Shown in pieces: positions 33,125 to 36,251 of a stretch of DNA of 64,000 bases. The stretch comes from Polytrichum commune (taxonomy: Eukaryota; Streptophyta; Polytrichopsida; Polytrichales; Polytrichaceae). Position numbers and translations under genes: made by a program. The DNA is taken from NCBI GenBank assembly GCA_950295325.1, contig OX485808.1:36972527-37036526 (forward strand), read 5' to 3'. The notes beneath the pieces are model-generated. The model was not told where the DNA came from. It was given only the letters and a program-made list of their open reading frames with translations, and searched no databases. Positions within the stretch are counted from its first letter, which is position 1; each line of letters begins with the position of its first letter.

Positions 33125-36100
33125 TTACAAAATGGGCGGAGTGTAACCCATGCTATTGAGATCCACGTATTGAGATGGGTTCTGGCGGTCGCGGTGAATC
33201 TTGACGGCAGCAACAAATGCACCTGTTGCAATGAACATGAGGATGATGAGAACAGTCCACAAGCCAGTGTGACCTCCACTCTTCTTTTTCCCACTTTCCC
33301 CATTTTGTATCCAGCTCCAGCCTGTTCCTTCTTTCATTTTCTCGCCACCTGCTGCCACCAAGATCTCCTCCAAGCCACCCTGCAAGACCACAGAGAAACA
33401 TTTGTCACCTTCCAGATTTTTACGAGGTATCTGTGTGTGATCCTGTGGCAGCACAGTAATATAACTAGAATATTACCTGAAATATTAAAGTTATCCTTTA
33501 AATCAATGGGATTTTTCGTCTGGAGTTGGCCCCTTATGATTTTTTATTGGTTTTTTTACATACATTATATTTCTTTCCAATCGTGGCGCATGCTTGGAGG
33601 TAGTGTTTAAACTTGTATGAAGCAACCCGTATTGTTTCAATGAGGGCCAAACTCGTTTTAGCACCTCTTGGCATGCCAAAATGAGTTTGAACCTCAATGA
33701 ACCAATATAGAATGTTCTTCGGTAAAACCTCCACAATGCCTTCAAGCATGCACTGCAAACTTACTGAACATAAAAGGTGCTGTATGCAAAACAACCAACT
33801 CCCAACCAACATGTTGAGTTAGAGGATAACTCTATTATCTGCAGTAACAGTTACTCGTTATTCAGGAGTGTTAGGGAGTGGAAACTTACTTGCATCAGAC
33901 CTGAAATGCTCCGGGCCATTTGAGCAACTATCTGCTCGTGAACAAACTGTGGCCTTGCAGCATTACCTTTGCACCATGAGCATTGAGGTGAGGACTCTGG
34001 CACGTTGCATACTCCAGTGAACCCTGGCAAATTCTTGTCTGCAAACAGATCACAGACAGGCTTGTCCCAAACTTTCCCAAAAATGTCCTTGGCTGTTGAC
34101 AGTGACATGTTTGTGTTGTACATGTCTCGATGTTTGCCACTTTGGAGAGATACCATTACCTGCAGACATTTTGAGGACAGTGTTTTACCTCAATTAAAAG
34201 CTGGTCTGACAAATTAAGGATGTCAATTTGAAAATATTGCTCATGGAAGTGCTATATTTGTGAGTGGAATTTCCATATAACTCTCATCATTCTTCCTCAA
34301 GAGTGAATGTTCCTAATGCAAGAACTCAAATCTAAGGGGTTGGATTCTTGATTACTAAACATTTCATCTGGGGATTCCATCCAGCAACCAGTACCCCAGA
34401 ACACTACCAGAGAGCGTAGAGATGCAAGAGAAATAAACACCTACCTCTCCAAAATTGGCTGCTTCACCACAACCACAAGTATCCGTGATGGCATTACACA
34501 TCTGCTTGCAAGGAAGACCCAAACTAGCTGCCTGCAGCATGCGAGGCACCACTTGCTGAAGTGCCAATGATGCTTTCTCCTTTCGTTCCGCAACAGCTGC
34601 CAACAGGGGCTAAATTGACACAAAAGGACAAAATGAGTTTCTGCAGTTGACCTGCCCTTTTGAATAAATTGCATAGCTGTTTCATGTAATATGACCCAGA
34701 CCTTGCTACACCAAATATCGCCATCACTCTGGGCCACAGTGATTGTAAATAACGACTTGGTGTGGAATTTATATTTTTATAGAAATATTATATTGTTAAA
34801 GCCAATCCAATAGATCAGTAATATTAATATTGTATCAATAAAACCTGCACTAATCATCCATGAATATGGAATCGTGTGACATCAACCCACACTAATGGTG
34901 ATATTCTGTGTACTGGATTCTCAAAAAGCACACTTCTCAAGGATCAGTTCAATGTAGCCCTGATATTTTAATGTGATATATTTCTTCAAAGAATAAAAAG
35001 GGATAGTATTACATCCTCATGCCAAATAATCCAAGAGATTGCAATGAGTGTTGCGAAATTTACCAGAATTTCATCAATGACCTTGTCAAATGTGCCACAT
35101 GTGGGTACAGTCTGTGCACACCAGAAATGGTGCATGTTTTTGTAGCATTCATGGCATTCACCAAATCCTGGTAAAATAAACCAACAACATCAATTAAACT
35201 ACTTTGCCAAATACACATACAAAATTCATCTCTGTCCCAACTGCTTGTGTCCTTTACGAAGAAGCCAGCCACCCAACAAGCCTCCAAACTCCCAAAAATT
35301 TGCATTACTGTACGAATACATCACAACCAGATTGAAAACAAATCATAAACTTAAAACGTGTAGCACTCATCTGTAGCTTTCCAAAGTCACTCATGATGTT
35401 GCTACAACAGGAAATTATTCTATTAGAGTTGGTATTACCTTCTTTTTCAAGTGTTCTCATAAAGTGTTTTTCAGGATCCTTGGAGATGTGTTCTGTGGCT
35501 GCCAATTTGAATGCACAATCCACTTTCTCATTGGCCTCCGTGCAATGTTTTGCATAGTCGGAGTCTGAGGGGATAGGTTCACATGCCATCTGACCTCCAA
35601 AGATATTGCAACGATGCTCATCAACCTTTGCATATACATTTCCAATCTCTTTGAGTAACATTTTTTGTGAGTGCAATGGGAGATGCACTGCGGTTGTCAG
35701 CAACTTTTCAATGTCATCCATATTCTTCCACTCTGCACAAAATAACTCCCACAATGATGTAAAGTTGTTGGCAGTTCACAACCCCTTTGGACACAAGTGG
35801 ACGTTAGTTGACCTAACCAATCATTGCCAGAAGATTCAGTTAATGAACTGCTTCGACATTCTCTTAAATTACAGGAAACATAACCTACCACCCGATTCTC
35901 CAGATAGGATCATCATGTTCACTATCTGTGAAAAAGAAAAAGAACAAAAGACACAATTTCTCCTCACTCTAGTATCAATCTGTGAGTCTTGACTTCCATC
36001 ACGAATTCCAAGCACTCAACCCCTTTACCCAAGAAGTAAAACATCAAGCTTTGTAATTCTGAGGTACAAAATCATAGCAACAAAACAAGGATGCAAAATG

Positions 36101-36251
36101 AAGTCACAGATGTGATGAGGAAGTGCGAGAGCCCAAAAGTCTCACCAGTTTCGAGTAGATGAGGTACGCGAGGACTGAACTTTGCAGTCGTCAAAGTGCT
36201 GCTCCAGAGGACCAGAGCCACAGCCATCCAGGTCCATCTCAGGCACTCCAT
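33125..36251 (-). CDS. Cysteine-rich type I membrane protein, FZ-CRD-like
   Basis: I do not recognise a named family. Six exons fit in frame: 36146-36251, 35439-35732, 35064-35167, 34445-34609, 33890-34159 and 33125-33379, giving 397 residues. Residues 1-23 are a signal peptide (MAVALVLWSS core). The lumenal part has many cysteines: C77, C86, C99, C108, C138, C141, C150, C157, C202, C206, C213, C215 and more. One membrane span lies at about 353-372 (WTVLIILMFIATGAFVAAV), followed by a short basic-start tail with YVDL and TPPIL. The patterns FWCAQTVPTC (C-x6-C) and PCKQMCNAITDTC (C-x3-C-x6-C), plus an upstream CEPI, reproduce cysteine spacing of frizzled-type CRDs. This is inference from spacing only. 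Start choice: the ATG at 36251 gives a clean signal peptide, while one at 36302 would add 17 basic residues. Confidence 0.88.
33488..33832. mobile_element. Fold-back MITE family B, copy 3 (intronic)
   Basis: It fills most of the 510-bp intron 33380-33889 of the cysteine-rich gene. Left arm AGTTATCCTTTAAATCAATGGG, right arm GTTGAGTTAGAGGATAACTC followed by TA. The central hairpin carries CACCTCTTGGCATGCCAAAATGAG. Confidence 0.9.

Follow-up and report, generated by a model that had tools for sequence, protein, structure and literature searches.

Among the ligands and partners of proteins in the CRD superfamily are Wnt, sterols, folate, and ion channels. For the Frizzled type (FZ-CRD), the parts of PMC4256011 used here give the cysteine pattern as C*C*CX8CX6C*CX3CX6,7C*C*C (the pattern also appears in PMC6938638) with the disulfides C1-C5, C2-C4, C3-C8, C6-C10, and C7-C9, and place the CRDs of the NPC1 N-terminal domain and of the folate receptor in the same superfamily. 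For Mid1/FAM155 proteins, the excerpts of PMC12412391 considered describe a ubiquitously conserved cysteine-proline after alpha 3 as well as a model search of 185 eukaryotic proteomes, including Diaphoretickes (plants and stramenopiles), which located homologues in Metazoa, Fungi, and Cryptista and missed a known apusomonad homologue. Among the matches listed in a literature search, no description of a plant Frizzled-like CRD was recognised by title.

Here, we compare with these systems a gene of Polytrichum commune, located in a window (the whole stretch of DNA analysed) of 64,000 nucleotides. The explanation that we regard as reasonably probable is that its product, a presumably sorted plant membrane protein, carries a divergent domain of the CRD superfamily (Frizzled/Mid1/NPC1) with a helical insert.

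Gene Model and Protein Architecture

The predicted gene occupies 36251-33125 on the minus strand and comprises seven exons that form one open frame of 408 residues with 17 cysteines; all six introns are of the GT-AG type. Its coding part ends exactly where an earlier, sequence-only reading of this DNA had set the limits (33125-36251). Exon 1 (36146..36251; all exons on the minus strand) supplies the start codon and a signal peptide, the latter recognised by inspection of MECLRWTWMAVALVLWSSTLTTA. The short exon 2 (35889..35921; 33 bases, 11 residues) could be skipped without a change of frame. Cysteine numbers in the sequence-only reading are 11 lower than in the 408-residue model, presumably because this exon had been omitted, and the frame holds both ways.

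Exon 3 (35439..35732) encodes a lumenal stretch in which C88, C97, C110, and C119 are candidates for C1 and C2, a role that finds no support in the controls below. C149 and the first core block, C152-x8-C161-x6-C168, are encoded by exon 4 (35064..35167), an assignment that draws on the gene model and the Pfam matches. Exon 5 (34445..34609) contributes a predicted long helix that makes up most of the insert, followed by the second core block, C213-x3-C217-x6-C224, on a second predicted helix, and by C226; here, gene model, Pfam, shuffles, and structure prediction all contribute to the assignment. In exon 6 (33890..34159), the stretch from WDKPVCDLF (C270) to C285 holds the candidates for C9 and C10, a homology that is likewise unsupported, together with C294 and C297. 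Finally, exon 7 (33125..33379) encodes the membrane span, the basic KIHRDR, and the cytosolic tail up to the stop codon; the tail is about 25 residues long and contains a YxxPhi-type motif, YVDL, at residue 395.

The protein has a single hydrophobic span near residues 358-387 and one N-glycosylation-type site at residue 251, and it is probably a type I membrane protein. The signal peptide, single span, and short cytosolic tail that the sequence-only reading had described thus recur in the complete model, and either role that it suggested, receptor or sorting protein, would agree with this topology and with the YVDL motif of the tail.

Five further open frames of the window were scanned against Pfam, three of which gave a match: a purple acid phosphatase-like gene (3189-4445, plus strand, E 1.1e-15), a peroxidase gene (27891-28655, minus strand, E 3.7e-66), and an exon of the tubulin-tyrosine-ligase (TTL) family (44408-44860, plus strand, E 1.3e-23). 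This gene content is consistent with a plant, and the TTL exon may point to one whose sperm are flagellate. The long frames at 48327-49163 (plus strand, 278 residues) and 53385-54299 (minus strand, 304 residues) had no Pfam match at E 0.01. The window also holds a tandem array of 4.6 copies of a 189-base unit (9676-10536) and a tRNA-Pro (TGG) at 24936-25007 on the plus strand. No functional hint for the CRD-like protein was seen in these neighbours.

Cysteine Pattern of the Lumenal Domain

The three blocks that had originally drawn attention to this protein are all found on the minus strand of 33125-36251: CEPI at C97, WCAQTVPTC at C161-x6-C168, and PCKQMCNAITDTC at C213-x3-C217-x6-C224. With C152, which the sequence-only reading had not listed, the last two complete a core of C152-x8-C161-x6-C168, 44 residues, and C213-x3-C217-x6-C224, in which the claimed Frizzled-type order and spacing is exact at all six core positions of CX8CX6C ... 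CX3CX6,7C, measured against the pattern as it is given in the part of PMC4256011 used here. Also the claim of an insert longer than in animal FZ is borne out, since the blocks are separated by only 10 residues in Frizzled-8. Beyond the core, cysteines stand at plausible spacing for C1/C2 (110/119) and for C9/C10 (270/285).

Such a pattern might conceivably have arisen twice, with an unrelated plant helical disulfide domain in which C-x8-C-x6-C and C-x3-C-x6-C are independently evolved helix-to-helix staples. When 16 cysteines were placed at random on the 334 lumenal residues, with 5-60 residues between the blocks, the ordered two-block pattern appeared in 37 of 200,000 cases; when the actual spacers were instead put in random order, it appeared in 1,413 of 200,000, a frequency that leaves room for convergence. 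Both figures overstate the surprise, because the pattern was picked after the sequence had been seen.

Profile Matches and Controls

Against Pfam, the whole protein matched the Frizzled family (Fz) with E 0.45 (11.5 bits) and residues 77-314 did so with E 1.4 (9.9 bits), in both cases behind DUF1247 (see below). For residues 134-235, Fz (E 0.022, 15.7 bits) and Mid1 (E 0.04, 13.5 bits) became the two best matches; the latter aligned positions 15-91 of this stretch to model positions 314-396 and hence ran across both blocks and the insert. After deletion of residues 175-206 (32 of the 44 between the blocks), Fz rose to E 3.2e-6 (28.1 bits) and Mid1 was listed at 2.9; both this deletion and the 134-235 stretch were chosen by hand around the motif. 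Even so, 28.1 bits on a hand-shortened sequence was the best value with real flanks, compared with the Fz gathering score of 32.1, and filing the protein under the Pfam Fz family is therefore not justified, as this cut-off was tested and missed. Mid1 was unlisted for the whole protein and for residues 77-314. The families of the NPC1 N-terminus and the folate receptor were unlisted at E up to 10, in a scan where few matches above about 0.1 pass the HMMER filters. An NCBIfam scan returned no family, and PDB sequence searches at E up to 10 yielded only two and three weak, unrelated sequences, respectively.

For calibration, the Frizzled-8 CRD matched Fz with E 2.9e-36. The CRD of FAM155A, which is known by structure, reached only E 9.3e-4 (18.8 bits) with Mid1 in a like scan and was unlisted for Fz, which means that weak scores do occur within the CRD superfamily; in a PDB sequence search, FAM155A matched Frizzled-3 at E 0.12.

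Sequence shuffles that kept all cysteines in place bear directly on convergence. The 102-residue stretch was shuffled 24 times and its shortened form 30 times, and no shuffle of either set had a reported match to Fz, Mid1, or DUF1247 (E up to 10), so that the Fz match does not come from spacing alone. These figures are counts of reported matches, because the filters hide most of those above about 0.1. Lone E-values near 0.02 are not rare, as each set contained one shuffle that hit an unrelated family, with E 0.018 among the 24 and, for a different family, 0.028 among the 30.

The flanks tell a different story from the core. Removing only the first insert from residues 105-290, with the flanks kept, gave Fz E 5.6e-4 (20.9 bits); removing the second insert as well, again with real flanks, gave E 2.4e-5 (25.3 bits, profile positions 43-109 of 110). 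When the flanks of this doubly shortened form were shuffled, six versions scored 22.5-28.4 bits. Three of these exceeded the version with real flanks, and four were listed for Mid1, for which the real one was not. Taken by themselves, neither residues 75-175 nor residues 240-300 were listed for Fz. Since real flanks do no better than shuffled ones, the Fz signal resides in the core, and C1, C2, C9, and C10 are unsupported. Pairwise Smith-Waterman alignments were not significant either: the score against Frizzled-8 was reached by 261 of 2,000 cysteine-fixed and 181 of 2,000 full shuffles, with an alignment out of register past the first block, and the score against FAM155A by 148 and 101 of 2,000, respectively. 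Between Frizzled-8 and FAM155A themselves, the corresponding counts were 33 and 9 of 2,000.

Convergence is thus favoured by the unsupported outer cysteines, the insignificant pairwise alignments, the lack of a meaningful PDB match, and the fact that DUF1247 outscores Fz in the whole protein, but it is opposed by the loss of the Fz and Mid1 matches in cysteine-fixed shuffles and by two separate CRD-superfamily models topping residues 134-235. On balance, we hold it to be unlikely, though still deserving of weight.

A narrower alternative is an ancillary subunit of the Mid1/FAM155 type, with the CRD sitting atop a plant cation channel and aiding its arrival at the membrane. The Mid1 alignment across both blocks and insert speaks for it, as does LPCKQMC in the plant protein next to IPCKQYC in FAM155A. 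Yet 13.5 bits stand against a Mid1 cut-off of 28.6, the conserved cysteine-proline is missing (C224-G225-C226, if CX3CX6C is taken as the alpha 3 equivalent), and the survey, in the portion of PMC12412391 considered, names no plant homologue, which together make this subunit very improbable. A plant cell-surface receptor that signals upon ligand binding, as the sequence-only reading had proposed, would suit the signal peptide, the lumenal CRD-like domain, and the single span, but a cytosolic tail of only about 25 residues and the absence of a kinase or other signalling domain from the Pfam report leave it the least credible of all.

The divergent CRD-superfamily domain accordingly keeps our preference, and the relation to FZ stands in part: residues 134-235 match Fz and Mid1 better than any other Pfam model, in register, and these matches vanish on shuffling, whereas no Pfam cut-off is reached, DUF1247 outranks Fz both for the entire protein and for residues 77-314, and neither the outer cysteines nor the pairwise alignments lend support.

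Other Candidate Relatives

DUF1247, which we take to be a baculovirus family, matched residues 115-162 (exons 3-4, within 35064-35732) with E 0.0074 in the whole protein, 0.0038 in residues 77-314, and 0.0016, 0.0012, and 0.001 in other longer stretches. In two short stretches (residues 134-235 and the version shortened by deletion), E was 0.068 and 0.039. The match fell below the family's own cut-off throughout and was gone in all six flank shuffles; it is probably due to chance. In a search of viral contigs, two loci (L001 and L002) matched residues 47-86 (40 residues, 40 percent) with an E of 6e-4 that is relative to the candidates only, one seed being EWKNMDDI, and both were judged chance. 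Neither a second scan of the viral contigs with exons 6-7 as query nor one scan of the genome contigs collection gave relatives. A SPARK domain, considered as another possible identity, was absent from the Pfam matches, and no paper joining SPARK and 'frizzled' was found.

Predicted Structure and Possible Role

Single-sequence prediction of exon 5 alone gave a helix at positions 2-29, comprising most of the insert, and a second one at 34-45 on which C213, C217, and C224 lie. Mean pLDDT was 72.2 for the best model (pTM 0.44) and 57.2-72.2 across the five models. The result agrees with a CRD helix that has an extra helix in front of it, although it does not single out that arrangement. Presumably, fold and disulfides of the lumenal domain are of the CRD type, and an extra long helix would be inserted between the fifth and sixth core cysteines. 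Because CRDs do so in other proteins, the disulfide-braced helical domain would most likely bind a partner protein or a small hydrophobic ligand on the lumenal or apoplastic side. Through its short YVDL tail, the protein could be sorted by clathrin adaptors between Golgi, endosome, and plasma membrane.

Taken as a whole, a separate plant branch of the Frizzled/Mid1 CRD superfamily, recognisable by a long helix that separates core cysteines 5 and 6 and borne by a single-pass membrane protein that is sorted, is possible but on the doubtful side. If true, the protein could be a lumenal lipid- or channel-binding subunit that family models have overlooked because of the insert. A plant CRD branch without Wnt would help to show the role of the domain before its use in animals, and this protein provides a concrete gene for a knock-out.

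Comparison with Known CRDs

The nearest likenesses to the fungal Mid1 (PF12929) and animal FAM155/NLF-1 CRDs are C-x8-C and C-x3-C-x6-C, the PCKQ-x-C common to FAM155A and the plant protein, and the 83 Mid1 model positions aligned to 77 plant residues, insert included. Unlike Mid1/FAM155, the plant protein lacks the cysteine-proline after the last core cysteine and scores under the cut-off, and it has x6 where FAM155A, by our assignment, has x10 between the fourth and fifth core cysteines; FAM155A has no long insert. From the NPC1 and folate receptor CRDs, it differs in that their Pfam families are unlisted for it.

With the Frizzled CRD (PF01392), the plant protein shares CX8CX6C followed by CX3CX6C, a proline ahead of the C-x3-C-x6-C block, and, in HFWCAQTVPTC as in FFLCSMYTPIC of Frizzled-8, a proline two before the last cysteine. 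It differs in its unsupported C1, C2, C9, and C10, in reaching no Pfam cut-off, in the far longer spacer between the blocks, and in crossing the membrane once, whereas Frizzled does so seven times. The protein is probably a distant relative of the old Frizzled domain family rather than a Wnt receptor. Pei and Grishin are said to have reported FZ-CRD proteins in plants already in 2012, so that a CRD in plants may not be new as such; the novelty of the present protein, compared with these systems, may lie in its insert and in the type of protein that carries it.
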